Shown here in pieces: positions 40,743 to 58,627 of a stretch of 64,000 nt of DNA (its first letter is position 1; every line of letters begins with the position of its first letter). The notes beneath the pieces were generated by a model that saw only the letters and a list, made by a program, of their open reading frames with translations, did no database searches and had not been told where the DNA came from. The position numbers were made by a program, and so were the translations under genes. Origin of the DNA: Gimesia sp. (lineage in GTDB: Bacteria; Planctomycetota; Planctomycetia; Planctomycetales; Planctomycetaceae); the NCBI RefSeq assembly GCF_040219335.1, contig NZ_JAVJSQ010000004.1:620001-684000 (forward strand). The letters are read 5' to 3'.

Positions 40743-40900
40743 TAAGAGTAGATCGGAAAGAAATTCTCAAAAAGAGTTCATCTTTCCGACAGGATTTGAC
40801 GTAGTAATTACGTACTCCTGCTTACGGGGGCGATCGGATTCGACTGGTTCGCCGTATGTTAGGGTGGCGTGCCGTGGTTGATCAGTTGGCCACGTTAAAA

Positions 40901-40948
40901 GCTGATCACAATCTAATTGCAAACAAGCAATTTTCAATGGCTGCTTAA
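40901..40948 (+). other. tmRNA tag-peptide reading frame
   Basis: From a GCT resume codon the frame reads ADHNLIANKQFSMAA and stops at TAA (40946-40948). Length of 15 residues and the Ala-Ala end fit a proteolysis tag recognised by ClpXP. The residue before the final Ala-Ala is Met, where many bacteria have Leu (LAA). The exact resume codon is inferred from position. Confidence 0.75.
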
Positions 40949-41152
40949 TATAGCAACCCCGGCTTAGGAATCCCTGTCTGAGGAGTCCGAAGGCTGGTCA
41001 CAAAATCAGACTGGCATCAGATCAATGTCCGCTCCGTCTGATGCGAGATCCGTGGTGGACTGGTTTCCGAAAGGCTTTGTTTGTCGTGCCCGAAGAAACG
41101 AGACTCAAACGATAAAATACGCACGTAGAGGCTCTAGCTGAGGGTTCACAGG

Positions 41153-41180
41153 ACGCGGGTTCAATTCCCGCCGCCTCCAA
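41153..41180 (+). other. Presumed island attachment site in the 3' end of ssrA
   Basis: The last bases of tmRNA (T-arm and acceptor strand) are followed within 141 bases by an integrase gene and then by accessory DNA to the end of the window. The 3' end of ssrA is a classical target of tyrosine recombinases. I saw no second copy of this sequence within the window, so the other end of the island should lie beyond 64,000. Confidence 0.6.
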
Positions 41181-41320: not shown

Positions 41321-43201
41321 GTGGATAGAGCTTCGGAGGTCGAAATCAGCCAGCCCAACGGAAAGATCACGCGGCGGCACAACCGTCAGAAATCGGGCCG
41401 AAACGGCGAAACCAAGGGGGAACGTTTTTTCCTTCAAGGGAAGCGGTGGCGATTTCCCCGTGATCTTATCCACCAGGAAGTAGAGACGCGTATTTCGCGG
41501 CTTCGGGAGCTGTGGAATGACCATGAGCGATTCCAACACACTCAAGTTTTCATCACCCCAGGAATCGTGGAAACTCTCCCAGAATTTGCCCTGGAGGATG
41601 AAGCGAAGCGTTTCCGAAAATGGCAACAGACTGCAGAAACCTCTGTCAGCGACTCCGAACAGGGGTTATCGTCTCACCGGTGGCCACCTTTCGGCAGCAG
41701 CGGACTAAATGGTGGTGTGACAAGAGGGGAAACTGAAACTGAATGGTCCCCCCTGGCCCTGTGGATTGCCGAACAAATCAAAAAAGGCATTCAACCAGTC
41801 CCCCTTCCGCCGCTCCCCGAACTGCTGAAATCCATCTATCAGGAAGACCGCATTGATTACCGCTTTGGACATATTGCCCAGCTGTTTTCGGGGCCTCCTG
41901 AGTCGCACCCACCAACGACTGGTGATTTACGCTGGCAGGATGCGTTCAAGCTGCTGAACCGACTGACGGAAGCCTATCCATCCGTGCCATGGACCATGTC
42001 GCAGCGTCAAGTTGAAGAAACGGCCCAGTTCCATGAACAGACAGCCAGAGAGGCAATCGCGACAACAGCAAAGGTCCGTTCACAGAAGTCCCCCGAAACG
42101 AAGATCCCGCTTATTTCAGGAACCTTTCATCAGGCCCTCAAAGAATACTCCAAGTATAGAAAAGCACACTTTACCAAAGCTGGTGAGTTTGACGGTAGCG
42201 GCCACTACATGCTCGGTATGATTGAGAACTTTCAGAAAAGACAACCTAACTTGCCCCTGGCAATACTGGACTTTACGCATTGCCAGGAAATTTATGACTT
42301 CTGGAGAAATCGTCCGCTGAACCTGAGAACCAACAAACCACTTTCCAAAAAGCACTGCTCCAGTCACATCGGTGAACTCAAGAGATTCTTTATCTGGCTC
42401 CACACCTCAGACAAGTTTGCCTGGCGTCGACCTGAAGATTTTGACCTGATCGAGACCAAGGTCCAAAAATTGCCCTCAGACCGACGGTCAATCCATGATA
42501 TTGAAATTAAGACATTCAGCGTCGATCACCTTAAACTTTTATATAAGCACGCTCTGCCTGCACAGCGACTCAAGATAGTATGGTGCCTCAACTGTGCCCA
42601 TGGTGCGGCAGAAATTGGACGGGTCGAATGGGAAGACTTGTTTCTGAATCAGCCCCATCCATGGACAAATGAAGGCCTTAAGATCACCAGCGACAATAAT
42701 GATTCCTGGTGCGGACTGTTGCGGCCAAAGACAGACGTAGTCGGCTGGTGGTGGTTGTGGCCAGAAACAGTTCAATTGATTCAGTGGTGGAAATCAGATC
42801 TTCAGCGACGAATTAAACGGGATCTTAAGTCGTCCGAACGAATCATGCTTACGGACAAAGGAGCAAATCTGTATCGCGATTCATCCCGAAATGCCCAGTC
42901 ATCATTTTCAAATGAATGGAGCCGCCTGCGGACACGCGTTGCTAAGGCGGAAGGTAAGGACGCGATACCAAAACTTCCCTTTGGTACCCTTCGGGATCAG
43001 TTCAGCAACTGGCTCGGCAGTGACCAGAACCGGGCCGTGATCGCCAGCGTCGCATTGGCACATGGAATCCCACACAAGGGCGACAAGCTGCTTTATAAGC
43101 ACTACTCGAATCGCCCCTGGGCCCATCTCTTCGAAGCCCAAAAAGAATATCGTCAGGCTCTTCAGCCGATGTTCGACGAAGTCACTACGCCAGCTACCTG
43201 A
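41321..43201 (+). CDS. Tyrosine-recombinase-family integrase, divergent
   Basis: 626 residues from a GTG start. An N-terminal region of about 270 residues has no recognised domain, then a core-binding part (TFHQALKEYSKYRKAHF to FFIWLHTSDKFAW) and a C-terminal catalytic part: IVWCLNCAHGAAEIGRVEWEDL in the place of box I, LWPETVQLIQWW, TLRDQFSNWL for box II and LLYKHYSNRPW with the likely nucleophile Tyr. The Arg normally present in box I is His here. From memory, a group of planctomycete integrases lacks it too (LNCGM-type motif). Next to ssrA and at the head of accessory DNA, it is almost surely the island integrase. No Shine-Dalgarno is obvious; the GGTCCAATTA repeats lie just upstream. Confidence 0.75.
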   Translation: MDRASEVEISQPNGKITRRHNRQKSGRNGETKGERFFLQGKRWRFPRDLIHQEVETRISRLRELWNDHERFQHTQVFITPGIVETLPEFALEDEAKRFRKWQQTAETSVSDSEQGLSSHRWPPFGSSGLNGGVTRGETETEWSPLALWIAEQIKKGIQPVPLPPLPELLKSIYQEDRIDYRFGHIAQLFSGPPESHPPTTGDLRWQDAFKLLNRLTEAYPSVPWTMSQRQVEETAQFHEQTAREAIATTAKVRSQKSPETKIPLISGTFHQALKEYSKYRKAHFTKAGEFDGSGHYMLGMIENFQKRQPNLPLAILDFTHCQEIYDFWRNRPLNLRTNKPLSKKHCSSHIGELKRFFIWLHTSDKFAWRRPEDFDLIETKVQKLPSDRRSIHDIEIKTFSVDHLKLLYKHALPAQRLKIVWCLNCAHGAAEIGRVEWEDLFLNQPHPWTNEGLKITSDNNDSWCGLLRPKTDVVGWWWLWPETVQLIQWWKSDLQRRIKRDLKSSERIMLTDKGANLYRDSSRNAQSSFSNEWSRLRTRVAKAEGKDAIPKLPFGTLRDQFSNWLGSDQNRAVIASVALAHGIPHKGDKLLYKHYSNRPWAHLFEAQKEYRQALQPMFDEVTTPAT

Positions 43202-43557: not shown

Positions 43558-44880
43558 CTATGTTGCAACTTCAGCGATTTCCTGACTTTGCATCCAATCA
43601 GCTACATCCTTTTCAGCACGTTTGCCGAACTGCTGACCTCGCGACCATGCTCCGTGGGCTTCTTCTGCAGTCAGAGATGTCATATTGAGTCCAACGTGGG
43701 CCGCTATCTGGCGAACCTGATCGGCTACAGTTGGGAGAGCATCTTCGTTGATGGCCAGGGCTTTCTGGACCAGCCACTGGCAGCCAGATTGCGACATATC
43801 ATGATCCAGGCTGATTTTGTTTTTCTTCAGTCTGGCCCTGATCTCCAGCAGAGAAGCTTGTAACTTATCCCAGGCCAAATGCCCCAGTACTGCGTTCAGA
43901 TCGCCGTTCATGAGCCTCAGTCTGAAACCGAGCCATTGTACGTGATCATTGTCGGTTAGATCGAAGATGGCATCGTGCTGGGGTTCCTTAATCTGGAGTG
44001 CAGCAGATTGAAGGCGTTGGCAGATGGCACCGTACGCGTTGACGGCGTCTTGTTCAGTGTCGGCGAAAACCGCGATGTCATCTGCATAGCGGACAAGAGT
44101 CGTGCCAGGGAATTGTTCGTTCCACCAGCGATCAAAGTAGTGATCCAGATAGACGTTTAAACATAACGGCGACAGGCTTAGTCCTTGTGGAATTCCCCAC
44201 TTCCGTTTTCGGTCCAGAAGTTCTTCGATCAACCCTATGACAGGGGACTGGTGGAGACGTGATCGCAGGATCTTAAGCAGTCGAGCCTTGGGAACTGATC
44301 CGAATGCGTCCTTGACGTCGAAGACGACCATATGGTGCTTCCCCTGATCCACCAATAATTTCGCCGCGGCGATGCCGTGAGCCAGTGATCGACTGGGACG
44401 AAAGCCGATGCTCAGGTCATAGAAATTCGGATCCAGCATCGGTGTAAGCAGCGTGCATAGGTTTCGGGAAAGGATGCGGCTCGAATCGTCGGGAATCTCG
44501 ATAGTGCGGAAACCCTCTTTGCCAATTTTGGGAATCTTAGCCTTGCGGTATTTCCCCCGTCGAAAGCTACCACTGAGAACTTCTTTCTGCAAATTACGCA
44601 GTTGATCCCAGGGAAACCAGTTTGGATCAGCTAATTCTGCAATATCGCCGAGCATTTCATACCGACCAATTTTATTGATCGCAACGGCCAGCAGCCTGGG
44701 ATTAGCAGCAGCCTTTAGCAGGCACTGGCAGTGTTCATGCATTCGTTTTTTCGCGGTGCGAGCCCACTGGTTGAGGTCTTCGTGGTACGACTTGATGGGG
44801 TCAACGAGTTCGGATCGGTTACCGAGATAATCTCGTTGAAGGTAATTGTGGCGTAGTGTGGAAATGGATTGATAGGGCAT
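43558..44880 (-). CDS. Reverse transcriptase, stand-alone
   Basis: 440 residues. The RT motifs are complete: IGFRPSRSLAHGI (residues about 158-170), MVVFDVKDAFGSVP with the first catalytic Asp (188), GIPQGLSLSPLCLN (229-242) and VRYADDIAVFA with the YADD box at 265-268, then VQWLGFRLRL. Residues 1-105 are helical; 330-440 may be thumb plus an extra domain. There is no maturase X/endonuclease domain and no HNH motif. The QGxxxSP form excludes the diversity-generating type (SQ). I cannot assign it to retrons, group II-like or defence (DRT/UG) groups. It lies between the integrase and a small regulator gene in the island. A stretch with hairpins precedes the start codon. Confidence 0.9.
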   Translation of the reverse strand: MPYQSISTLRHNYLQRDYLGNRSELVDPIKSYHEDLNQWARTAKKRMHEHCQCLLKAAANPRLLAVAINKIGRYEMLGDIAELADPNWFPWDQLRNLQKEVLSGSFRRGKYRKAKIPKIGKEGFRTIEIPDDSSRILSRNLCTLLTPMLDPNFYDLSIGFRPSRSLAHGIAAAKLLVDQGKHHMVVFDVKDAFGSVPKARLLKILRSRLHQSPVIGLIEELLDRKRKWGIPQGLSLSPLCLNVYLDHYFDRWWNEQFPGTTLVRYADDIAVFADTEQDAVNAYGAICQRLQSAALQIKEPQHDAIFDLTDNDHVQWLGFRLRLMNGDLNAVLGHLAWDKLQASLLEIRARLKKNKISLDHDMSQSGCQWLVQKALAINEDALPTVADQVRQIAAHVGLNMTSLTAEEAHGAWSRGQQFGKRAEKDVADWMQSQEIAEVAT

Positions 44881-44916
44881 GTGTTGGGCCTTTCATGGAA
44901 TGAATGAATTAAGAAC

Positions 44917-44974
44917 CGGGGCGGAGCAAGTCTACCCAGCCCCGGCTGAAAAAATGAGGTTACGGCGGTAGCCG
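44917..44974. other. Two hairpins upstream of the reverse transcriptase
   Basis: CCGGGGC (44917-44923) pairs with GCCCCGG (44940-44946) around a 16-base loop, and GGTTAC (44959-44964) can pair with GTAGCC (44969-44974) with one wobble. They lie 35-95 bases before the RT start codon. A structured leader or a template RNA (as in retrons) is possible, but the latter is speculation. Confidence 0.35.
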
Positions 44975-45475
44975 AACTTATTAAGAAAGCGAGCCTTGGC
45001 CCGAACCTTCCTGTCTTCAGCTTCCCCTCGACCGGCCTAGACATGCCCAACATAGATAAGAGTAAGGATCAACACATGGTCTAGAGATTAAAAATGACCG
45101 GAAACAGATCCTGGTAGTTTTCATTCATTGGCTATGCGGATCGAGAGTAGATGGAGTCACCTGTGGTGTAATATTGTTGTTTTATCTTTTCCCTCTCCAT
45201 CCAGGGAATGAATTGTCCTCCTTCTGTTAGGGTTAAAGTGGTTCCGGGATCAACAGGTATTGCCTTTGTTCTTTCCTGCATCCCCTGTTCAGAAACTGTA
45301 TTTCTCTTGTGGAACCGAATTCTCGATGGAGAGCTCGGTATCCGAGAAATTGTTCGAGTTGGGGTGCTGATTTATTCCTCGGTAGTCATGTACTCCCGAT
45401 GCGGATCTTGTGGACCGGCTTGAATAGGTCAGTGGGAAGGAATAAGGCGGAACTGGAAACATTAGTTATCGTTTC

Positions 45476-45522
45476 TCTTCATTGGGGCTCATTGGTTTTC
45501 ATTTGTCTTCATTCGGTCTCAT
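45476..45522 (+). repeat. Two direct repeats, 30-base period
   Basis: TCTTCATTGGGGCTCAT (45476-45492) and TCTTCATTCGGTCTCAT (45506-45522) agree in 15 of 17 positions. They lie just before the palindrome and behind the RHH gene. They could be iteron-like or operator sites; no proof. Confidence 0.4.
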
Positions 45523-45530
45523 GATCTTCT

Positions 45531-45556
45531 CAATTTAAATTCCGGATTTTAAATTG
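45531..45556. repeat. AT-rich palindrome centred on TCCGGA, copy 1
   Basis: CAATTTAAA (45531-45539) and TTTAAATTG (45548-45556) are perfect inverted arms around T-TCCGGA-T. It is the best copy of a four-member family in this island (also 47871, 51033, 55673). It lies 14 bases behind the RHH gene's stop codon. Confidence 0.75.
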
Positions 45557-45569
45557 ATTCAAAATGATC

Positions 45570-45791
45570 TTACTTCTTTGGTGATTTCTTTCGTGTCATT
45601 TCACGTTGGTAGAATCTCATAGTATCTTGTTCGGCCCGGTTCATGATCGCATCGTGCATAAAGTCGCTGATGGACATTTCACATTCGGCTGCTGCCATCT
45701 TGATGAGTTTGCGTTCCTTTGGTGTCAGTTTGACTTTCAGGTAGACTTCTTTCTCGTTCTCCTCAGTCGTTGCACTTTTCTTCTTTGCCAT
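45570..45791 (-). CDS. Ribbon-helix-helix (CopG/DUF1778-like) protein
   Basis: 73 residues from ATG 45791 (GAG eight bases upstream; an ATG at 45806 has no such site). Basic N-terminus, then VYLKVKLTPKERKLIKMAAAE and MSISDFMHDAIMNRA, the strand-helix-helix pattern of CopG/Arc-type DNA-binding proteins such as TacA/DUF1778 antitoxins. It may be a regulator, an antitoxin without a visible toxin, or a mobilisation (MobC-like) protein. It is divergent from the truncated primase with a palindromic site between them. Confidence 0.65.
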   Translation of the reverse strand: MAKKKSATTEENEKEVYLKVKLTPKERKLIKMAAAECEMSISDFMHDAIMNRAEQDTMRFYQREMTRKKSPKK

Positions 45792-45835
45792 TGGATTCTC
45801 ATTCATATATCATTGTTTGTCGTGCGGCCAGAACA

Positions 45836-45845
45836 CCCATATGGG
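45836..45845. promoter_or_regulatory. Palindromic operator candidate
   Basis: CCCATATGGG is flanked by ACA on the left and, after one G, TGT on the right. It lies between the RHH gene and the divergent primase remnant, directly beside the promoter of the latter. Autoregulation by the RHH protein is plausible. Confidence 0.4.
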
Positions 45846-45850
45846 GTGTG

Positions 45851-45878
45851 TTGACCAATTCGTTTTTCATGATACAAT
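45851..45878 (+). promoter_or_regulatory. Sigma-70-like promoter
   Basis: TTGACC (45851-45856), 16-base spacer, TACAAT (45873-45878). It points toward the truncated primase gene, whose ATG is at 45970. Confidence 0.55.
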
Positions 45879-45969
45879 TTCAACCTGAGCAGTCAACGGC
45901 AAAATCACCAGTTCCGTTAGGAAGGCCCAACGAGTGGGCTCACGCACCACTTGTTTCAGGGTTTTCAAG

Positions 45970-46530
45970 ATGACCAGACCTGAGAGCGAATACGATTCGC
46001 ATGCTTCTCACAATAATGGACCTGCAAGCCAAACCGAAAGGAAGCATAACCGCCTCAACTACAGTGCAAGAAAATTTCTGCAATTTGTTCATGCCCCTGG
46101 GAGCATTTTCCAGGTCTTCGTCAAGGAGGTGGATTTCCGCCCCAATCGAAACCTCATCGGTTTCTATGACATGGATCATCTGAATAAGCTTGCGGAAGAT
46201 GTGAAGCAACACTCAGGCCAAGCCACTGCGATCTTCTACAGCTTGAACCCAGTCACACCATCTTGCCATAACCGGGCGAAGAACTGCCTGAAACCGGGCT
46301 TGCACGCCCAACCAGCAGAGAAATCAGACATTCTGTGTCGACATTTAATGCTGATCGACATTGACCCTGTACGCGATTCAGACTGTTCGGCGACGGATGA
46401 TGAGAAAGAAGTTGCCTACTGGGCCGGGCGGATTGTGTCGCGTGATCTGAGAAAGGCGGGCTGGTCCAGACCGGTTGCGGTCGATTCGGGTATCGGTAAT
46501 CGGACACTGATATTGTGTGGCCTGAATTAA
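45970..46530 (+). pseudogene. Primase-polymerase-like protein, truncated after its catalytic region
   Basis: 186 residues from ATG 45970. The pattern TAIFYSLNPVTPSCHNRAKN, RHLMLIDIDPVRDSDCSATD with its D-x-D, and GWSRPVAVDSGIGN matches the N-terminal archaeo-eukaryotic-primase-type domain of mobile-element replication proteins, which continue after DSGxG with a His-rich strand and a helicase part. Here the frame stops soon after DSGIGN, and the following DNA in no frame continues the family. It is therefore probably a remnant. The island's other replication-type gene (53180-54802) might have taken over or be its former partner. Confidence 0.6.
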
Positions 46531-46679
46531 CAGCATGGAGACATTACAGAATCCATGGCCTGTTTTCATAAGTCTGCGAAGAATGGTAGCCCCGGCTGTG
46601 GCTTTTCCGGAAAGATGGTAACGCAGTTACGCCGGAACAGATTGAAGTTCCCCAGCAGATTCCAACAACAAGTATAATC

Positions 46680-47588
46680 TCAATCTTCAATAAAATAATC
46701 GGAATCAATCCGCTTAATGAAATACGACTGAGCTGTGCTCACACCGACATTGAAGTCGATCATAAGCTGGGCGAGACGGTTGCCATCTATCAACACAACT
46801 TTAGGATCAATTGTCTCAACATATTGATGAGCATCACGGGAGAACGTGCTGGTCGTCAGAAACACTCCCTTTCTGGCCCGTTTACCATGCAAGGCACCTA
46901 CAAACTTCTGAATCTCGGGGCGTCCAACCTGGTTCTCCCACCTTTTGGCCTGCAAGTAAACAATATCCAACCCGAGCTGATCTTCATTTATAACACCATC
47001 AATTCCTTCATCGGCACCGGCAACGGTTAATGAACCTGCGGTATCCTGAGAGCCTCCATATCCCATGGCAAGCATCAGATCCAGCACAAGCTTTTCAAAA
47101 AAGACCGGCGTCATTCGTTTCACTTGGTAAATTAAATCTGCTGCCAAATCTTCACGTATTTGCTTGTATGCCGTCTGTAATGCTTCTTCTGGTGTCTCTA
47201 TCTCAGCCTTCTTCTCGACTGCAGTAGCTTCATCATCATTTTTATCACGTGACTTAAAGTCTCTAAACTCATCAAATTGGAGCAGGAATGATTGATCAAT
47301 TCGATCTACGGAGGAATTTAATACTTCACGACCACGGTCTGTTATTGTGAATTGACCTCGAGTGACCGTTTCCAATAATCCAGCACGCTCCATATAGGTC
47401 TTGGCCCAGGCGACACGGTTATGGAAAACAGTTTGCTGTCCGCTGGGCAGTAGCTTTTGTCGCTCTTCATCAGAGAGCTCAAGATAATCCGCTAAGGTAT
47501 CTTTCAATATGCGAACTGTGTGTATTTTTCCATCAGAAATATGTTTTAAAAGCGGTAGCATAATGGTTTGAAAGTCGGGGATTGTCAC
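46680..47588 (-). CDS. mrr: Mrr-type restriction endonuclease
   Basis: 302 residues. N-terminal winged-helix domain (residues 1-95, MTIPDFQTIMLPLLKHISDG to FTITDRGREVLN), a charged linker, then the Mrr catalytic domain: FFEKLVLDLMLAMGYGG, ADEGIDGVI with the catalytic Asp, and DIVYLQAKRW with the QxK variant of the PD-(D/E)XK motif, then GVFLTTSTFSRDAHQY. Mrr enzymes cut DNA carrying foreign methylation. Full length. A stand-alone defence gene in the island; a copy of the TCCGGA palindrome lies about 280 bases upstream. Confidence 0.95.
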   Translation of the reverse strand: MTIPDFQTIMLPLLKHISDGKIHTVRILKDTLADYLELSDEERQKLLPSGQQTVFHNRVAWAKTYMERAGLLETVTRGQFTITDRGREVLNSSVDRIDQSFLLQFDEFRDFKSRDKNDDEATAVEKKAEIETPEEALQTAYKQIREDLAADLIYQVKRMTPVFFEKLVLDLMLAMGYGGSQDTAGSLTVAGADEGIDGVINEDQLGLDIVYLQAKRWENQVGRPEIQKFVGALHGKRARKGVFLTTSTFSRDAHQYVETIDPKVVLIDGNRLAQLMIDFNVGVSTAQSYFIKRIDSDYFIED

Positions 47589-48028
47589 GGCTGGCCCAGT
47601 CTACTATTTCGAAAGAGATGCGATTCGACCTTGTTCACTTATCACAGGAATCAGTATTGTCGCTCCACACTCACAATCAAGGTTATGTAGTGCTGTGATA
47701 CTGCTGCCACGACAACAAAATCACTACGTTTATGGCTTTATTCTGAACAATATCCCACTTAGCTGGTCTGAGCACAACAATAAACAGAACGAGACACCGC
47801 AATAATCAAAAAACGACCGCGTGTTTAATCGCCTGCGGGATCTTCAATGTGATTTGAATACGCCCATGATTTTAAAATCCGGAATTTAATTATTTCACCA
47901 GCCAGACGCCAGAATCAAGTAGATCATGAATCGTTACAACATCGGTAACCAGATCCTGAAAATGTGTAGCCCGACGTCACCACGCGGAGTCGTTTCAGAA
48001 GCAGCTGACCGCCGTAGCATCAATCGCG
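47589..48028. other. Non-coding region upstream of mrr
   Basis: About 440 bases with no credible gene, holding the mrr promoter and the second palindrome copy at 47871-47889. Confidence 0.4.
47871..47889. repeat. AT-rich palindrome centred on TCCGGA, copy 2
   Basis: TTTAAAATCCGGAATTTAA is, as reverse complement, identical over 19 bases to the core of copy 1 at 45531. It lies upstream of the mrr gene. Confidence 0.75.
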
Positions 48029-48274
48029 ATGCTGGCCATGAGCGAGAGCTCCGATCCCCTCCCCTACAAAAACCTCTCCAATAATCACAGTCGGTTTACA
48101 GCCACCTCCCTGTCGAGCCAGATTCTCCGCCTGGAGCCGGTGACTGCTCCAGCGATGCTGGAGAGCCTCCCGGGTCAGCAGATCACGCCCCTGCCCTTCG
48201 GGCCAAGTGATGTTGCTCTAACGACCATCGTTGTTTGCCAGCAACTGGGGATTCATGGTATACAGTCAGACTAA
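48029..48274 (+). CDS. Doubtful small coding region
   Basis: 81 residues from ATG 48029, with the frame open to 47981. Third positions are GC-rich in the way of real genes here (SQILRLEPVTAPAMLESLP). No ribosome-binding site, no recognised family. Either a small unknown gene or a remnant. Confidence 0.25.
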   Translation: MLAMSESSDPLPYKNLSNNHSRFTATSLSSQILRLEPVTAPAMLESLPGQQITPLPFGPSDVALTTIVVCQQLGIHGIQSD

Positions 48275-48596
48275 AGAATCGAAAAAAACCAACAGTCAGA
48301 CGACGGCACCAATCTATCCGATCGGCTGTCTGAGGGGTTTAAAAGACAGTGGACATGGCCTCCATCTTGAAGCTGGATGGCTTCCACAAATGCAAGAAGT
48401 TCTTGTTCTAATAGAAGTTACCAACTCCCAGAGTCACGAGTCATTTGTAACCGATATGTTTCTCTTACGTCATTCACAGAACCAACCGAATGAAGTTTTG
48501 ACCCTATACCATTTTGAGCCCTGTATACAAAAACGGAAGGTCCTTAATTTGACTTTTTGTAATCGTCGACGCCGTAATGACGCATTTTTGAAATGA
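48255..48596 (+). CDS. Doubtful small coding region
   Basis: 113 residues from ATG 48255 (overlaps the previous candidate by 20 bases). It includes a protein-like stretch (PIYPIGCLRGLKDSGHGL, VLVLIEVTNSQSHESFV) but no known motif and no clear ribosome-binding site. Confidence 0.3.
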   Translation: MVYSQTKESKKTNSQTTAPIYPIGCLRGLKDSGHGLHLEAGWLPQMQEVLVLIEVTNSQSHESFVTDMFLLRHSQNQPNEVLTLYHFEPCIQKRKVLNLTFCNRRRRNDAFLK

Positions 48597-48677
48597 TTGT
48601 ATCCGTTCGACACGGATTTTGTCTGTTTCCGAAAACGAACCACACGATCGGTTATGTCTTCCTGAAATGCATTCCGC

Positions 48678-49835
48678 TTATTCATCTCGCCAGGACCTGG
48701 CAGTTGGGGTGAGTAAACTACCCATTTCAGCGAATCGCGATTTATGGATTTGCTGATTATTTTGAATCCTTGGCCGAACCTGTGGCACGCCATTTTCATG
48801 AAACCATTTCACCAGTGGCATCCATTCTTCAGCCCGTTGAGTATCTCGAACATGATTCTTTACGAGCGAAAGCATTTTATTCTTGTCAGTTTTCGGAAGC
48901 TCACTATTGAGGAGCAGTCCATACTCAGGGGTCCCTTTATACCCAGGTGGCAGGAATGTCTTGGCTACTGCATATTGACCATCAAATACAATTGGGCAAT
49001 ATCCCAGGCGATACTCAAAGTAGTCCTGGCTTGAGTCGTAATCCTGCTTCCCCAGAATTCCTTCCACATACACTTCGTGCGTGAAATAGATCGAACTCCC
49101 GCAGGCCCTGAAGAGAACAACGGCAGGTTGATTGTCGTGCAAAGTTGTCAATTCAATCCGTGGTACGTACGCTACAAATCGAACAATATCCATCAGGTCT
49201 GAAACGTGCGTTCTCCATCTGGGAGCGATTCGCTCACAGACCCGCTCTAGAGCATGCGTAGTGAAAACAAGATGCTTCGTGCCCTCCGCAACCTCAAGAG
49301 ATGGAGAGTTCAATCCAAAATGAATATTTCCCTGCAAGGTCCTCTGAGAGATCACTCTCTGACAATTCAAAAAAATGATCTTATCTTTTGGCTGAATGAT
49401 AAAGTGATTGTGAGGCATGAACCGGTTCTTAATGCTTTCAGGGATCAGTGAGTAGATAGCCTGCGAAAGTCTATTTTGTTCTTCCTGTAGCCAGGCGTCC
49501 CCAGCATTGAGGTTAATTTCCGCACGTTCCTCGTTCACAATTTCGCGTAATGTTTCAATATGTTGGAAACCATAATTTGCCATAAGTTTCCATGTCTTTT
49601 GGTCAAAATCGTCGAAGTACTCGGTATCTTCAAAGTTGATTTTCTGGGCAGCAGAGTAAACCGCATCAGTGAATTCAGGGGCTGCCGTACAACCCGATGC
49701 GACCTTGAATTTCGGGAAGCGACTGCCTCGTTTCCATTGATCCTTGCGAACTGCATCCTGTTTTTGACGCTTACGACGCCTGAGTTCCTTTCGCTTTTTC
49801 TTTTGATGGCGTTTAACTGACTTTGTACCCGGCAT
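48678..49835 (-). CDS. Unknown protein with Lys/Arg-rich N-terminus
   Basis: 385 residues. The first 40 residues are extremely basic (KRHQKKKRKELRRRKRQKQ), suggesting contact with nucleic acid. The remainder is globular with TWKLMANYGFQHIETLREIV, LVFTTHALERVCERIAPRW, VVLFRACGSSIYFTHEVY and YKGTPEYGLLLNSELP. I do not recognise the family. The HALERVCERI segment followed by a beta-rich domain could be an enzyme core, but no reaction can be named. Isolated gene within the island; a GCGTAACAC repeat lies about 110 bases upstream. Confidence 0.7.
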   Translation of the reverse strand: MPGTKSVKRHQKKKRKELRRRKRQKQDAVRKDQWKRGSRFPKFKVASGCTAAPEFTDAVYSAAQKINFEDTEYFDDFDQKTWKLMANYGFQHIETLREIVNEERAEINLNAGDAWLQEEQNRLSQAIYSLIPESIKNRFMPHNHFIIQPKDKIIFLNCQRVISQRTLQGNIHFGLNSPSLEVAEGTKHLVFTTHALERVCERIAPRWRTHVSDLMDIVRFVAYVPRIELTTLHDNQPAVVLFRACGSSIYFTHEVYVEGILGKQDYDSSQDYFEYRLGYCPIVFDGQYAVAKTFLPPGYKGTPEYGLLLNSELPKTDKNKMLSLVKNHVRDTQRAEEWMPLVKWFHENGVPQVRPRIQNNQQIHKSRFAEMGSLLTPTARSWRDE

Positions 49836-49918
49836 TCATGTTCCTCCGCTTCAGTTTGTGGATACTTGAGAAATCCCAGAGTTGCTTTCTTTCGAGAAGG
49901 CCTGTGAATTGCTCCTGG

Positions 49919-49952
49919 GACTCACCCTATGCATATCGAACCGGCGTAACAC
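49919..49952 (+). repeat. Dispersed GCGTAACAC repeat, copy 1
   Basis: GACTCACCC (49919-49927) and GCGTAACAC (49944-49952). The same two blocks in the same order and nearly the same spacing occur at 55395-55428; shorter versions are at 51295-51316 and 51491-51499. Confidence 0.55.
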
Positions 49953-50021
49953 AAACTGGCTTCTGTGAGGGAATCGCCAGCAGTAAATCAAAGGTGACTT
50001 GAGACTGCTGCCAGGAACGTG

Positions 50022-50055
50022 AAAAAGCCGCCTGCAGACGAGTCTGCGGCGGCTT
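50022..50055 (-). terminator. Terminator behind the zinc-ribbon gene
   Basis: On the + strand AAGCCGCC-T-GCAGA (50025-50038), loop CGAG, TCTGC-GGCGGCTT (50043-50055). Read on the minus strand the stem is followed by five T, so it ends the 50081-50896 transcript. Confidence 0.9.
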
Positions 50056-50080
50056 GGGAGTTATCTAAGCTGGAACCAGG

Positions 50081-50896
50081 TCAAACCGCCGTGTCGGCTG
50101 TATCAGCCTTATATGGGCTGATACGGATCAACTGTGATCTCTTATATCCATTAACCAGGTTCTCAAACGCATCCAGATTGTGTGGACGGTAAAGTGCCAT
50201 CCACTCAAGCCGGAGCACAGCCACCATGGCTTTAATGATGTTGTCATGCGTGACTTTTCCGAATACTTTTCCCTTAAGAGCTGGACGAATGCAGTACCTG
50301 TTTAGCTCTTTGGAGATTTTACAGTCTTTGGGAATGATCTGAATTCCAGAATGGCATAGCTGGACCTTGGACTGACCTTGTAGAACATTCTCGTTCACGA
50401 ACGGTACAACCATCTGGACGGTTACCAAGGCATCACACCAGGTATGAGGACCATAATTAGATCGCAGAAATGGTAATTTTCCATCGTTTAAAGTAACACG
50501 TCCCCATGCAACAACCTGATACCCCTCACGTTCCGATACTGGCACTGCCAGTAACGCCCGGTAGGCCTTTACCAACCGAAGTCTCACAAAGCACCAGGGG
50601 CACACCTTCGGATTCTTACAGGTCTTCGTCTTCGGAAGAGCGTTAAACCCACACGGTGGGCAGTTCAAGGCGTAAGTATAAGCTCGCCTATTCTCCGGTT
50701 GGGCCGTAATCGCCCTGTAGTATTGATACCGATAGGCATTCAACAGAACCTGAGCTTTCGCCAGATCGGTACTGCCGTAATTCTGGGGCATCTTGTCGAG
50801 AATACAATGTCGAAGTAATAAGAGAGAAGTCGACTTGGCCTTCGGTGTTAGTTTGAAATCAATGGTGCTTTTGGGTTTCTGCGATTCCATGATCAT
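50081..50896 (-). CDS. Unknown protein with a cysteine-rich (zinc-ribbon-like) segment
   Basis: 271 residues. Residues about 85-110 contain four to five cysteines (NCPPCGFNALPKTKTC, then NPKVCPWCFVRLRL), a likely zinc-binding site. Helices rich in Leu/Arg lie around it. The context CPWCFVRLRLVKAYRAL recalls zinc-containing parts of plasmid replication initiators, but no catalytic Tyr/HUH motif is seen, so this is only a suggestion. It ends in a strong terminator and starts near a region with inverted repeats that may regulate it. Confidence 0.65.
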   Translation of the reverse strand: MIMESQKPKSTIDFKLTPKAKSTSLLLLRHCILDKMPQNYGSTDLAKAQVLLNAYRYQYYRAITAQPENRRAYTYALNCPPCGFNALPKTKTCKNPKVCPWCFVRLRLVKAYRALLAVPVSEREGYQVVAWGRVTLNDGKLPFLRSNYGPHTWCDALVTVQMVVPFVNENVLQGQSKVQLCHSGIQIIPKDCKISKELNRYCIRPALKGKVFGKVTHDNIIKAMVAVLRLEWMALYRPHNLDAFENLVNGYKRSQLIRISPYKADTADTAV

Positions 50897-50950
50897 GCCC
50901 CCTTCGAACTGAAATTATGGGGACTTAACCTGACAAAGTTGTCAAGTAAA

Positions 50951-51227
50951 TCGTTTCTACTCTCCCTAGAGAGTATGTGTGGCGACAAGTCGCCCACGCA
51001 TACAGAAGATGAAATCGCACATTGAAAGCATCTTAAAATCCGGATTTGAAGTTTCATTTTACTGCCTCGATTCGTGAAGTAAATGTTCCGCGGTGGTCTT
51101 ACATTGAATCAAAGCCGGTTGAACTGAATTCTCCTTCGAAGGAACACTGATTCAATTCTTTGCGAGTCTTGTCTCAGGCCCGGATTTCATCCGGCCTGAC
51201 ATACTCTCTAAGTGAGAGTAGAAACGA
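50951..51227. repeat. 277-bp segment bounded by inverted repeats
   Basis: Left end TCGTTTCTACTCTC and GAGAGTATG (50951-50977); right end CATACTCTC and GAGAGTAGAAACGA (51200-51227), which is its reverse complement with small changes. Each end is itself a palindrome (TACTCTC...GAGAGTA). The inside holds GGCGAC-AA-GTCGCC (50981-50994), the third TCCGGA palindrome and a 12/11-bp hairpin (51174-51199). No gene inside. MITE-like, or paired operators upstream of the zinc-ribbon gene. Confidence 0.55.
51033..51050. repeat. AT-rich palindrome centred on TCCGGA, copy 3
   Basis: TTAAAATCCGGATTTGAA, a slightly altered copy of the family (see 45531), about 140 bases upstream of the zinc-ribbon gene. Confidence 0.6.
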
Positions 51228-51839
51228 CTAATCTGACAAGTTTTGCAAGTTAGTTCCTGACTTGGGAAATCATTCCGACTTGATTCATCCATATCTATCG
51301 CGACTGCGTAACACGGGGTGGTTTCACGAAGCTTCCTCTTCTGAATGTCGCCCTGGCACCGAATGGTGGGGATACAAAATAACCTCACTCGAAACCAATA
51401 ATGAATTCCGAGTGAGGCGAGAGGATACACAAGCGGTTTGTCAGTTATTAAGTGAAAACCACTTCGAAACTACAAATACAGATCGCTGGAGCGTAACACG
51501 ACTAAAAGGTGCCGGTACCCAGAGCCAGAAAAGGCCGTCAACCACATTGACTGGAGGCGGGCCCCATGTAAACGGGCCCTCACACATAGGAAAGGGAAAG
51601 CTCTGGTTGGTCACGATCCCATCCGGATAATCATTAACTGATTCCATCTCATTGACGACAGAGAATCCATATGAAATTCTTTAGACTGTCTGCTTTATAG
51701 CGTAGTAGACAATGTTCAAAATAAATCGCGTATGCACTCTGGTCCGCATTCATAATGCCCATGCTAACCTCATTGAATTATCGGAAGGTCTCGGGCACTT
51801 CTTTTTTGATTGACCTTTAATCACCCTTTGGGGATTATT
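51228..51839. other. Non-coding region with repeats and a hairpin
   Basis: About 610 bases. GCGTAACAC occurs at 51306-51314 (within CTATCG...GCGTAACACGG, 51295-51316) and at 51491-51499. GGGCCC at 51559-51564 and 51574-51579 enclose a 9-base loop. A frame from TTG 51262 to 51630 has a few protein-like stretches (NEFRVRREDTQAVCQLLSE) but no start signal and is not called. Confidence 0.4.
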
Positions 51840-52691
51840 TTAACTCTCTAGTAACTGAGCAAATTCTAAGCCATCCTCAGAGAAAACCTTATTTATCAAG
51901 TTTCCGTCGAAGAAACTTTCACAGAATTGAAATAAACCAATTTCAGTCATTACCTCAAGATGTGAAATTGTGGCAGATAAGCCGAATGCCTTCTTTCTTG
52001 TTTTAATCATCTGGTCAATAAAAATGGATGCCCTATCAACTTCTCTTGGATCACCTTGCGGTTTTCCGTCAGAGGAATAATCCATAATCCACAGCCGATT
52101 ATTGGGAACGACTAATACTGGCAAGACTAATGTGTAGCTATTTTTGGTTGTTGTAGCTCGCCAGTCATCACAAGAATCGTTAACTAAATCATATGATGAA
52201 TGAATAGCCTGCGACCATTTATCATAGACTTCTGCATCATTTCCAGTGATGTCTTTATTCTGGGTAGTACGTCCGACTTGGGAGCATGATTTACCTACAT
52301 AATCTCCTACTGAATAAAGGCTGTGGTAACCTTTAATGCGAAGGCGTCTTCCTGGCGAACCATGGTCAATTCTATGAGAATGAATAACCTCATGGAAACT
52401 TTCATTTTCAGTTCTCGGTATCCTCATGATCAGAAGAGGAAAGTTACTTCGGAGATTTTTACACTCGATCGCCATTTTGACTGTGTATTTCATGCGAGTC
52501 ATTCGAGATCTGATATCGAACTGACGAGGTTTATTGGTTACAGGATCTGAATAAGAACCACTGTGTTGACATTCAATATTGAGGGAAGTCAACTTTGAGA
52601 GAATATTGAGTTCGAAACCAAAGTCTGAGGTATTGTTCACGAAATCTTTGATATCGTCGGCTTGGATAGGATCGTCGTTAAGTTTGACCAT
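51840..52691 (-). CDS. Probable PD-(D/E)XK nuclease, unknown family
   Basis: 283 residues. The first 80 residues show the order expected of a restriction-endonuclease fold: Glu27 in GFELNIL, Asp59 in PRQFDIRSR, and Glu76-x-Lys78 in MAIECKNL. After that come IMRIPRTENESFHEVIHSH, TLVLPVLVVPNNRLWIMDYSSDG and a helical C-terminus. The base composition is clearly more AT-rich than that of its neighbours, pointing to a separate transfer. Isolated gene. A stand-alone defence nuclease is the likely role, inferred from the motif and the island setting only. Confidence 0.7.
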   Translation of the reverse strand: MVKLNDDPIQADDIKDFVNNTSDFGFELNILSKLTSLNIECQHSGSYSDPVTNKPRQFDIRSRMTRMKYTVKMAIECKNLRSNFPLLIMRIPRTENESFHEVIHSHRIDHGSPGRRLRIKGYHSLYSVGDYVGKSCSQVGRTTQNKDITGNDAEVYDKWSQAIHSSYDLVNDSCDDWRATTTKNSYTLVLPVLVVPNNRLWIMDYSSDGKPQGDPREVDRASIFIDQMIKTRKKAFGLSATISHLEVMTEIGLFQFCESFFDGNLINKVFSEDGLEFAQLLES

Positions 52692-53088
52692 GAAAATTTA
52701 ACTCAGCTATGAAAAAAGAAGATTGTTTATGTTTCTTTCGTACTCAAATATCGTATGAGTTTCCCAATCTACACATTTGTGCGGTTAAAAGTCTAGTGGC
52801 CTGCAAGCAACAAGCAGGATACACATAAAAATGCTCCACCTAGTTCCCCTTCATTCCGCCGTCGCGTCAGCCTTGACACTTTCCAGGTTGATGTGACGGA
52901 GGAAATGGTCCCTTTGTTTTGTCCCAAGCCGATGCTTTTCGACCGCATTTCCCAGATGCCCGCAAGCTTTATCATGATGCTCGTGCAACAACCCTAAAAT
53001 TCCAGTAAATTCTGGCAACTCATGTCATGCAAACAAGGCCCCGATTGATGACAGCCAAAACTTGGATTTCTTTTGTGGGATACAAATG
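52692..53088. other. Non-coding region
   Basis: About 400 bases between the nuclease-like gene and the terminator of the primase/helicase-like gene. Fragments with weak coding character exist but none has a start and a recognised family. Confidence 0.35.
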
Positions 53089-53127
53089 AAAAAGCCCGCC
53101 GACCGCGATTGAACGCAGCCGACGGGC
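53089..53127 (-). terminator. Terminator behind the primase/helicase-like gene
   Basis: GCCCG (53094-53098) pairs with CGGGC (53123-53127) at the base of an imperfect stem-loop, followed on the minus strand by five T (complement of 53089-53093). It lies about 50 bases behind the stop codon. Confidence 0.8.
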
Positions 53128-53179
53128 CAGCAGATGCACTCAGATTATGATCTGAGTTATTGGCAATGCGATCTCAGCA

Positions 53180-54802
53180 TCAGGCGATCTTAGGATGATC
53201 CTGGCTGATCACGATGTCATCCTGATCATCGGGACCGTCGGCAACTCCTGATTCCGAATCTTCGACCATGAAGAAGCCATAACGATATGTGGCTTTTCCA
53301 TCTTCGAATCGTCTTCGCACTTTCTCTAGTCGGAACTCGACGCGTTGATCTTCCTCATCCTCAGAAAGTACTACGAATTTCTCATCCACATGAGCACTCA
53401 GCACTTTGCCCAGGCCCCGCTTTTGAGCTTCGTATGAACTCCGTTCATTCTTCGGAATGAGAGGATCAATAAGTCCCAGTCGACCGACTTCAGCCACGAC
53501 ATCGCTGATGGGCAAACACTTGTCTAATAAGTGCGACCCCAGAACCGCGATGCTACTGCGAATTGGATCGTCAGCCACACGACGGTCAGCATAATTATCG
53601 AGAAAGCCCTCAATACCGTTGACCATAAGGATGCCACCGATCACATGAGCCCACCCCGTACAGGGGTGGTACTTGGATTTATCCAGCGGCTTTCCGACTG
53701 CCCGCCAGCGAGCGATCATGCCGTAAGCTTCAGCGGCAATCTCCTCTCGATAACGGGGCAGATACTGGTGACGTGGATTACCGATATCACTGCGACGGTC
53801 TGTGATGCTGCCGTTCGGCTTCAGGTGAATCGGGAGTCCCCGGTTCAACAAGTCCTCTGACAACACCCCGAAGTTCGTCGACATCGACATCACGATCTCG
53901 TTTCGAATCCGTCGTGGTTCCGCCCTGCCCCCGGGGGAGAACAGCGTCGGCGATGGATCCGTTACGAATCGCTCGACAAAAGCCGAAGCAATCTTCGATC
54001 TGCCATTCACACGGGCATTCTCAAGCCGAATCATTCCCAGTAAAGGATCCGTATTGAGACTGGCGATGATTGCCTTCTGAGTCGCCCAGTCCGCTGGCTC
54101 CCAGCTGACCGAAGTCTTAGGCGTCATCCCCGCGATAAAGTCCAGAACGGTATCCTTACCACTGTGGCTCTTCGATGCCGTCGCCAGGATAATCGGCTTA
54201 GCACCAGGCCAATGATGCCTGAGTAAGACCGTCAGTAATCCGGCAACCGCATTCGCCCGGTCAGCCTGCGTATGGAAATCCATCACATCCAGGAACGTGT
54301 TGATCCGTTCCATTGAATCGGACACTTCTGGAGATTCACCAACGAAGAACACTCGATGTCCAACACCACCGTCGTTGTAACCGGGATTCGTCAATGTGAA
54401 TTCTGGCAGATACTCAGGTTGCGATGAAATTCGATCTACAGAGACAAAACGAGAGAGAAATGCTTCTGTATTAAGCATTTCTTCCAGAGTCCCTGCGGAG
54501 ATCCGACTGGGCTTCTGCTTTCCATTGAGAAACCGATGCAGATCAATGCGATCGGCAATCACAGCGGAAAGCTGTTTGCCCTTGGTTATGCTTCTGGGCG
54601 TGCCATCAGGCTTGACCAGAAACAATCCACCATCGTGACCAGGCTGACGGAACAAGTCCCCCGACCTGGCCAGAGCCCTGCCGAGAGCCTCGAAGTTTTC
54701 CCAGGCTGGCGACTCGTCATGCCAATACACCTGCGTGCGGCCTGTTACGCCGCTGGTATTATTTGAATCATATTTTACCTCATTTAAATTATTAGTAATC
54801 AT
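53180..54802 (-). CDS. Mobile-element primase/helicase-like ATPase
   Basis: 540 residues from ATG 54802 (GGAG nine bases upstream); the frame is open to 54946. Residues about 1-170 resemble the N-terminal part of P4/D5-type replication proteins (SGDLFRQPGHDGGLFLV). Then an ATPase domain: ILATASKSHSGKDTVLDFI with a Walker A of the GKDT form, LGMIRLENAR in the position of Walker B, SPTLFSPGGRAEP and IVMSMSTNFGVLSEDLLNRG. The C-terminus is acidic. Such proteins unwind DNA for element replication. Its former primase partner may be the remnant at 45970. Followed by a terminator; single-gene unit. Confidence 0.65.
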   Translation of the reverse strand: MITNNLNEVKYDSNNTSGVTGRTQVYWHDESPAWENFEALGRALARSGDLFRQPGHDGGLFLVKPDGTPRSITKGKQLSAVIADRIDLHRFLNGKQKPSRISAGTLEEMLNTEAFLSRFVSVDRISSQPEYLPEFTLTNPGYNDGGVGHRVFFVGESPEVSDSMERINTFLDVMDFHTQADRANAVAGLLTVLLRHHWPGAKPIILATASKSHSGKDTVLDFIAGMTPKTSVSWEPADWATQKAIIASLNTDPLLGMIRLENARVNGRSKIASAFVERFVTDPSPTLFSPGGRAEPRRIRNEIVMSMSTNFGVLSEDLLNRGLPIHLKPNGSITDRRSDIGNPRHQYLPRYREEIAAEAYGMIARWRAVGKPLDKSKYHPCTGWAHVIGGILMVNGIEGFLDNYADRRVADDPIRSSIAVLGSHLLDKCLPISDVVAEVGRLGLIDPLIPKNERSSYEAQKRGLGKVLSAHVDEKFVVLSEDEEDQRVEFRLEKVRRRFEDGKATYRYGFFMVEDSESGVADGPDDQDDIVISQDHPKIA

Positions 54803-55394
54803 AATAGTTTTCTCCACGAAGGATTGTTTTGTCCCCACACACCCGGCACACCATGCACAATAAAACGAATCTGCGTTCGCTGTAATCATCATCAGTTGCA
54901 CCTTTATGATTGAGTTGTGGGATTGTGTGTTGGCCCCAATGGCCAATCATCACTGACAAACTGGTCCTTCCCTCCTTAGAGACCCGGAAGCTGTCGTCGC
55001 CAACGAGGCGACCCGAGTAGTGATTCGTTATGAATCGTAATCACATTTGGCAAGAGCTCCGGCCTTGTGTCGAATCTCAAGCCGCCTGTCACATGACATC
55101 CCAGTTTTATTGATGCCGGTGCCAGGATTGGGCCCTGGCGAGTGTCTTCACGCGAATAATTGATTCGTTGTTCGACTTTTGGTGTTGTCCGGGCCGCATG
55201 GACCTCACCACCTCGCCTGCCCGTCAGCTCAACGGGCTCGACGCCGATCTGACCGTAATGGTGATCGACACCGATTGATGTGCTTTGCCTGGCTCCTCCT
55301 TACATTTACGTGTTACTCGGGTTTCCACTCAGGTTTCCTGGCCTGCTGTGACAGCCGTGTTGGGCGTGTCGGGTTACATAGACCATTTTTTCCT

Positions 55395-55430
55395 GACTCA
55401 CCCAATACCTATCGCGGGGGCGTAACACGG
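55395..55430 (+). repeat. Dispersed GCGTAACAC repeat, longest copy
   Basis: GACTCACCC (55395-55403) is followed by CTATCGCGGGGGCGTAACAC (55409-55428). The second block differs from the copy at 51295 in three adjacent positions only; both blocks together recur at 49919-49952. Confidence 0.55.
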
Positions 55431-55672
55431 AATTGTCAGAATTTTCTCAAGCGGCATTCAGAATGAGGTTTCAGGGGAGAGCGGTAACAGGATCTGGAAA
55501 GAATTTGTGAGGTGTGTGGGGGGTGTGCAGGGGCTATATAAGAGAGAAAAAAACTTCGTGAGGAGTCTGATTTACCCCATAATTTAAAACTCCGTGACTG
55601 CCTGCTTATTTGATGAAAATTTCGATGTAGCGAAGCTGGCCGGAGAACCAGAGCTCATACCCGGGAACATTG

Positions 55673-55692
55673 TTTAAATTCCAGATTTTAAA
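55673..55692. repeat. AT-rich palindrome family, copy 4
   Basis: TTTAAATTCCAGATTTTAAA, one substitution (G to A) in the TCCGGA centre compared with copy 1. It lies about 230 bases upstream of hsdM and overlaps a second inverted repeat, ATTCCAG...CTGGAAT. Confidence 0.6.
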
Positions 55693-55923
55693 ATTCCTGG
55701 AATCTCTTCGCCCTGACCGAGTTCCGCCCGTCGTAGTAACCTTAATAGTGGCATTCTGTTGTAGTCTTTGTTAACCTTTGGGGGACAGATGTTACGACGT
55801 TCTCCATCCGCTGAACACCTACCGGCTGTTTCGGAGAAAGGATCTGTAAGCCTTTGTCTATTCGGTCGCCAGACGGGCGACACGGCAACCAAGATGACAA
55901 CAGAACAATAGACGCAGGAAGCG

Positions 55924-58627
<2,704 letters not shown>

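Follow-up and report, generated by a model that had tools for sequence, protein, structure and literature searches.

Dispersed TCCGGA-centred palindromes as candidate operators in a tmRNA-bounded genomic island of Gimesia

What does a short palindrome do when its copies are scattered through one genomic island and stand only between genes? The question is raised by a 64,000-nucleotide stretch of a Gimesia sp. genome (the window; C4:620001-684000), in which a sequence-only reading had noticed four dispersed copies of an AT-rich palindrome around TCCGGA, and had suggested that one island-wide regulator might use them to switch several defence genes together. Here we follow these copies through the whole genome (7.93 Mb in 45 contigs) and through class-wide scans, by motif and by protein profile, that cover 397 genomes, of which the present one is G000. 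Their confinement to the island, their placement beside restriction genes and a reverse transcriptase (RT) gene, and their recurrence beside the same genes elsewhere make a set of switches the most likely function. We put at about even the chance that the palindromes are operators for a DNA-binding protein encoded by the island, with a small ribbon-helix-helix (RHH) protein as the likeliest binder.

The palindrome and its confinement to the island

The motif has the consensus YTTAAAWTCCGGAWTTTAAR, 20 letters that form a near-perfect palindrome. Searching the whole genome for sequences with at most one mismatch to TTAAAWTCCRGAWTTTAA, with the reversed pattern as control, returns six copies within 44 kb (four in the window and two beyond it, at C4:688544 and C4:709264), no match outside the island, and none at all for the control. 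The island itself spans 72 kb, from the 3' end of a transfer-messenger RNA (tmRNA) gene at window position 41179 to a second occurrence of CCCGCCGCCTCCA at C4:733307. This 13-bp boundary repeat is formed by the last 13 bases of the tmRNA, and every palindrome copy lies between its two occurrences, in agreement with the earlier remark that none was seen on the backbone side. All six copies are intergenic, as had been said of the four, in an island of which only 17% is intergenic (0.17^6, ~2e-5); the same is true of all 13 copies of the present island and that of G393, a genome of the same genus, with 16-17% of that DNA being intergenic. In the present genome the motif is therefore neither equally dense along the chromosome nor positioned inside genes, the two outcomes that the sequence-only reading had named as telling against common regulation.

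The four copies of the window are all where they had been described. Copy 1 (45531-45556, minus strand) is a 26-bp form, CAATTTAAATTCCGGATTTTAAATTG, with its core at 45534-45553; it lies between the RHH gene, whose end is 14 bp away, and the RT gene. Copy 2 (47871-47890, minus strand, TTTAAAATCCGGAATTTAAT) is 282 bp upstream of mrr, copy 3 (51032-51051, no strand assigned, CTTAAAATCCGGATTTGAAG) is 136 bp upstream of a zinc-ribbon-like gene, and copy 4 (55673-55692, plus strand, TTTAAATTCCAGATTTTAAA) sits in a conserved leader whose gene, hsdM, begins 231 bp further on. The three genes are those originally named; the centre of the fourth copy reads CCAGA instead of TCCGGA. The off-centre mismatch said to be shared by the best copies is real in some of them: a T-T mismatch (positions 7/14) is common to the copies at 45534, 55673, C4:688544 and C4:709264, has the opposite orientation in that at 47871, and is missing from that at 51032. 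Overall, the distance from a site to the gene downstream of it is some 40-400 bp. In the window, a promoter-like match comes within 5 bp of two of the four copies: one match, reading towards mrr, ends at 47889, within copy 2, and another, reading towards the zinc-ribbon-like gene, ends 5 bp before copy 3. Copies also adjoin a MoxR gene pair (copy 6 sits in its gap), a sigma-factor/kinase pair and the uncharacterised zinc-ribbon-like gene, so the notion of defence genes switched together fits only in part.

Could such a set arise by chance similarity, or persist as inert relics of an old repeat? Weak matches do arise inside genes, at C4:725112 in the present genome, which looks like chance, and at 3996712 in G744, a genome from another family. 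Yet the genome-wide counts and their controls contradict this explanation, and the counts refute it in its strong form; that all strong copies of the present island are intergenic, and that positions are conserved between families (see below), contradicts it as well, and we consider it highly improbable. A genome repeat of the repetitive extragenic palindrome or miniature inverted-repeat transposable element type was also ruled out, as no copies exist beyond the island.

Recurrence in related islands

If the palindromes serve the island, related islands should be where they recur. Across the 397 genomes the motif scan matches seven, against ~0.6 expected by a rough estimate: five with the RHH gene, one (G238) with homologous cargo, and one with a lone, unrelated-looking match. 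In other genomes of the genus there are seven copies across 62 kb (G393) and two across 18 kb (G238), while the other genera scanned have almost none; a looser pattern adds G397, G413 and G428. The tmRNA repeat of 13 bp also bounds an 88-kb island in G393 (1045100, 1133308) and a 53.5-kb island in G744 (3967325, 4020826), and all good copies of the present genome and of G393 fall inside islands. A search for exact matches beyond planctomycetes, in GTDB and in viral collections, gives only single, unrelated ones; the five on viral contigs carry one identical flanking sequence.

The link to the RHH gene (45570-45806, minus strand, 78 aa), whose neighbours are the RT, the recombinase and mrr, is tighter still. 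A search of the 397 genomes with a profile of RHH proteins from such loci returns seven strong homologues at E < 1e-25 (G000, G393, G397, G413, G428, G744 and G459), and the palindrome lies at, or within ~40 bp of, the RHH stop codon in all seven loci. Two of these, in G744 and G459, came to light only through the profile, and in both the palindrome comes shortly after the stop codon; in G428 it overlaps the stop codon and is followed by the RT gene, with a tmRNA adjoining, and the RHH genes of G397 and G413 have the perfect form CTAAATTCCGGAATTTAG directly 3' of them. The position homologous to copy 1 is thus occupied in G393, G397, G413, G428, G459 and G744. In addition, the 20-mer of copy 3 is found identical in G413:C258. 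Among the weaker RHH homologues that were inspected (G559, G617, G181, G385, G394 and contig C43 of the present genome) none has the palindrome. Nor does a TCCGGA palindrome occur in a second, divergent island type (G181, C43 of the present genome, G069, G394 and G385), which has a 586-aa RT and a different RHH protein, as in C43 (L160) and G181 C1:6933650-6937775 (L157).

The island of G744, in which the palindrome was read over 140 kb around the island, offers the most distant comparison. It shares the backbone (recombinase 73%, RT 54% and MoxR ATPase 82% identical) and has DUF2779, sigma-factor, kinase and ankyrin genes in common with the present island, and it contains three good copies of the palindrome and one degenerate copy. 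The first follows the RHH gene and precedes the RT gene, as here. The second, at 3984331, lies between a homologue of the 588-aa gene and hsdM, which is exactly the position of copy 4, and the two have a leader in common (GCATTC...ACTTTGCTACCCTTTTGGGGGACA). The degenerate copy corresponds in place to copy 6, in the gap of the MoxR pair. Two positions are therefore kept between the two families, the gap from RHH to RT and the leader of the type I restriction operon, with the MoxR gap weakly kept. That the 20-bp motif is retained at these two places despite diverged flanks is what would be expected of a functional cis-site. The restriction genes behind the equivalent site differ, being hsdM here and GmrSD in G393. 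The expectation that related islands carry the motif upstream of the same gene classes is borne out for the RT locus and the hsd operon, just as the genome-wide scan bore out its confinement.

The same comparisons bear on whether the palindromes are instead site-specific recombination or module-junction sites, similar to dif modules, at which cargo is inserted, excised or swapped. Homology to G393 switches exactly at the copy at 675673 (90% identical before, 55-61% after), and homology to G238 switches exactly at the copy at 688545 (unrelated before, ~90% after). At G393 C1:1082013-1084069 a single DUF2779 gene is flanked by two direct palindrome copies, where G238 has one copy and no gene; the arrangements U-palindrome-[DUF2779 gene]-palindrome-D and U-palindrome-D resemble an occupied and an unoccupied site, with direct repeats. 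Contig C266 of G413 (L094) terminates exactly at the palindrome after the RHH gene (19874-19893), hinting at alternative downstream sequences. However, in a permutation against random intergenic positions, three copies are found within 40 bp of homology breakpoints where 1.35 are expected (p 0.15), and wider distances give p 0.33 (100 bp) and p 0.18 (150 bp). Moreover, homology is continuous through most copies (A1/B1, A2/B2, A3/B3, A6/B6/C6), and the recombinase-like gene at the edge of the island is associated with the 13-bp repeat of the tmRNA 3' end, which is unrelated to the palindrome. Because the coincidence with breakpoints is not significant and homology runs on across most copies, we keep recombination as a rival to the operators, and a rather unlikely one.

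A candidate regulator and competing explanations

How might operators of this kind work? The islands of this family, which target tmRNA or tRNA genes, would encode a protein, most likely the RHH protein, that binds the palindromes at or just downstream of promoters. Once bound, it would repress (or time) the RT locus jointly with several cargo genes, notably mrr and the type I restriction operon, and the repression might be lifted, for instance, once the island had become established in a new host. From the proposal of an island-wide regulator, the part that stands is an island-specific, intergenic motif that travels with the RHH gene; the identity of the binder, repression through binding and its timing are what we infer from sequence comparison. 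For the RHH protein, the 26-bp form TTTAAATTCCGGATTTTAAA is a candidate binding duplex.

A number of observations weigh against this picture. Between clades, identity of the RHH protein falls to only ~30%, yet the palindrome is nearly unchanged, and each RHH gene has its own, different upstream palindrome (ACCCCATATGGGTGT here, at window ~45806-45870; GGACCCTAGGGTCC in G744; CCCCTTAGGGGG in G181), which looks like a more usual autoregulatory site. The copy linked to the RHH gene, moreover, is downstream of that gene, which is unusual for an operator, and G238 has kept two copies with no detectable RHH gene. Promoter-like matches are not commoner in the region than in shuffled sequence (18 against 15.7). 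Finally, a copy is not conserved at every gene across related islands, and in G744 the copy at 3975543 falls within a decayed gene, a homologue of the zinc-ribbon-like one behind copy 3. Since the RHH protein has diverged around an unchanged site and has a separate palindrome upstream of its gene, the TCCGGA sites may have a binder other than RHH.

The RHH protein itself brings in another explanation, namely that the island is maintained or transferred by way of the palindromes, as centromere-like, replication or transfer sites (parS, iterons, or an oriT with a NikA-like RHH protein). Its best Pfam match is the NikA-like mobilisation family (E 1.1e-7, followed by TacA1 at 1.5e-5), and it is this match that keeps partition or transfer under consideration. 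Short AATGA direct repeats with ~10-bp spacing follow the RHH-linked copy, directly beyond palindrome 1 (window ~45455-45530; G393 has fewer units), and a primase-like gene was seen by eye beyond the RHH-palindrome unit in G397. Against these stand the absence of any relaxase or ParA-type gene among the island proteins searched with Pfam, which are part of the total, and the distribution of the copies, which are upstream of diverse cargo genes and not clustered. We regard maintenance or transfer sites as unlikely. The G397 locus is rearranged in its own way (C368, 3269-4561; L072): the homologue of the gene at window 45934-46530 is in two pieces, the larger of them inverted and on the far side of the RHH-palindrome unit, and an RT-like fragment is fused in frame to a primase-like protein.

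A further possibility starts from the RT: the palindrome could belong to the RT unit, as the 5' end of a non-coding RNA in the RHH-RT gap, with the dispersed copies being retro-copied pieces or targets of that RNA. In the present genome, G393 and G744, a conserved non-coding stretch ahead of the RT gene does begin at one of the copies. This stretch (44881-45530, minus strand, ~650 bases) reaches from palindrome 1 to the RT gene, is conserved as far as the other family, has GC-rich hairpins near the RT start and is a possible RNA partner of the RT. On the other hand, the dispersed copies share only the 20-bp core and the rest of the stretch is absent from them, base-pair covariation in the stretch is weak (three sequences, two of them nearly identical), and the copy in the hsd leader goes back to an ancestor and is no recent arrival, all of which makes this origin very doubtful.

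Known systems and the genes of the island

Mobile elements with dispersed operators are already known, and so are integrative elements regulated by RHH proteins. The operators of KorA and KorB in plasmid RK2 (IncP; PMC11790492, PMC3199767) are similar in that one mobile element has several dispersed operators of its own global regulators. Those regulators are a clamp of the ParB type (KorB) and a helix-turn-helix protein (KorA), whereas here the candidate is an RHH protein, the element an integrated island, and the cargo restriction and RT genes. No ParB-type protein was found. Mycobacteriophage stoperators likewise pair a single repressor with numerous short sites across a mobile genome, but they are asymmetric and stop transcription elongation, unlike the near-perfect palindrome with a candidate binder here (PMC9283540, PMC6550527). 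TprA of the integrative and conjugative element PAPI-1 is an element-encoded RHH protein that binds a promoter of its own element; the part of that source used here describes one mapped site, in the transfer-operon promoter, and mentions neither a dispersed set nor restriction or RT genes (PMC8565334). In Acinetobacter plasmids, cargo modules are bounded by short inverted repeats, the pdif (dif) sites; the DUF2779 gene of G393 between its two direct copies recalls such a module, but pdif sites are sites of XerC/XerD, and here breakpoints coincide with palindromes no more than by chance (PMC13141974, PMC6449649).

In the literature searched we found no description of an RHH-RT island, or of dispersed operators on a tmRNA-targeted island with RT and restriction cargo. 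We offer, as a tentative and doubtful proposal, that these islands form a previously undescribed family with a core of recombinase, RHH, palindrome, non-coding RNA and group-II-like RT, in which the RHH or RT unit would use the dispersed palindromes to control, and perhaps to load, exchangeable restriction or defence cargo behind a shared leader. How an island protects a new host from its restriction enzymes, and expresses its cargo jointly, is poorly understood beyond single restriction operons that each have a control protein; one and the same operator ahead of type I and type IV restriction genes and the RT locus, kept while the cargo changes, would if true amount to a simple island-level control. 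The palindrome is in any case usable as a search tag for the island family.

The remaining genes complete the picture of the island. The tmRNA (40826-41179, plus strand), the sole match of an Rfam search, carries the left attachment repeat in its last 13 bases (41167-41179), and the 626-aa recombinase-like protein (41321-43201, plus strand) adjoins it; this protein has no Pfam or NCBIfam match and by eye is a divergent tyrosine recombinase without the usual first-arginine context. The RT (43558-44880, minus strand, 440 aa) has a group-II-like domain, is 45% identical in G428, and is present in G000, G393, G744 and G428, with a remnant in G397; no relatives were found in viral contigs. Its scores stay below the curated cut-offs (retron St85 52/235 bits, Drt3a 46/200, group II maturase 139/300), and assignment as a retron or as a defence-associated RT (DRT) is not supported, the scores being below the cut-offs of all named RT families.

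Among the cargo, mrr (46680-47588, minus strand) is a type IV restriction gene (Pfam Mrr_cat, E 2.1e-35), the zinc-ribbon-like gene (50081-50896, minus strand) encodes 271 aa with CPPC/CPWC motifs and is the one whose homologue is truncated at the G744 palindrome 3975543, and hsdM (55924-57501, plus strand; Pfam N6_Mtase, E 3.7e-86) is the first gene of the type I restriction operon. The leader element downstream of copy 4 (55742-55790, plus strand) reads TTAAT..GTGGCATTCTGT..CTTTG.TAACCTTTGGGGGACAGAT in an alignment of A4, A5, B4, B5b, C5 and G744 D3. Clean insertion of the palindrome into the MoxR gap was considered and dropped: paralogues outside the island are without the palindrome, yet their gap is similar in length and AT content. 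The pair itself, a MoxR-type ATPase and a 314-aa gene (708255-710791), is multi-copy in the genus, with copies 83% identical on contigs C18 and C23 of the genome.

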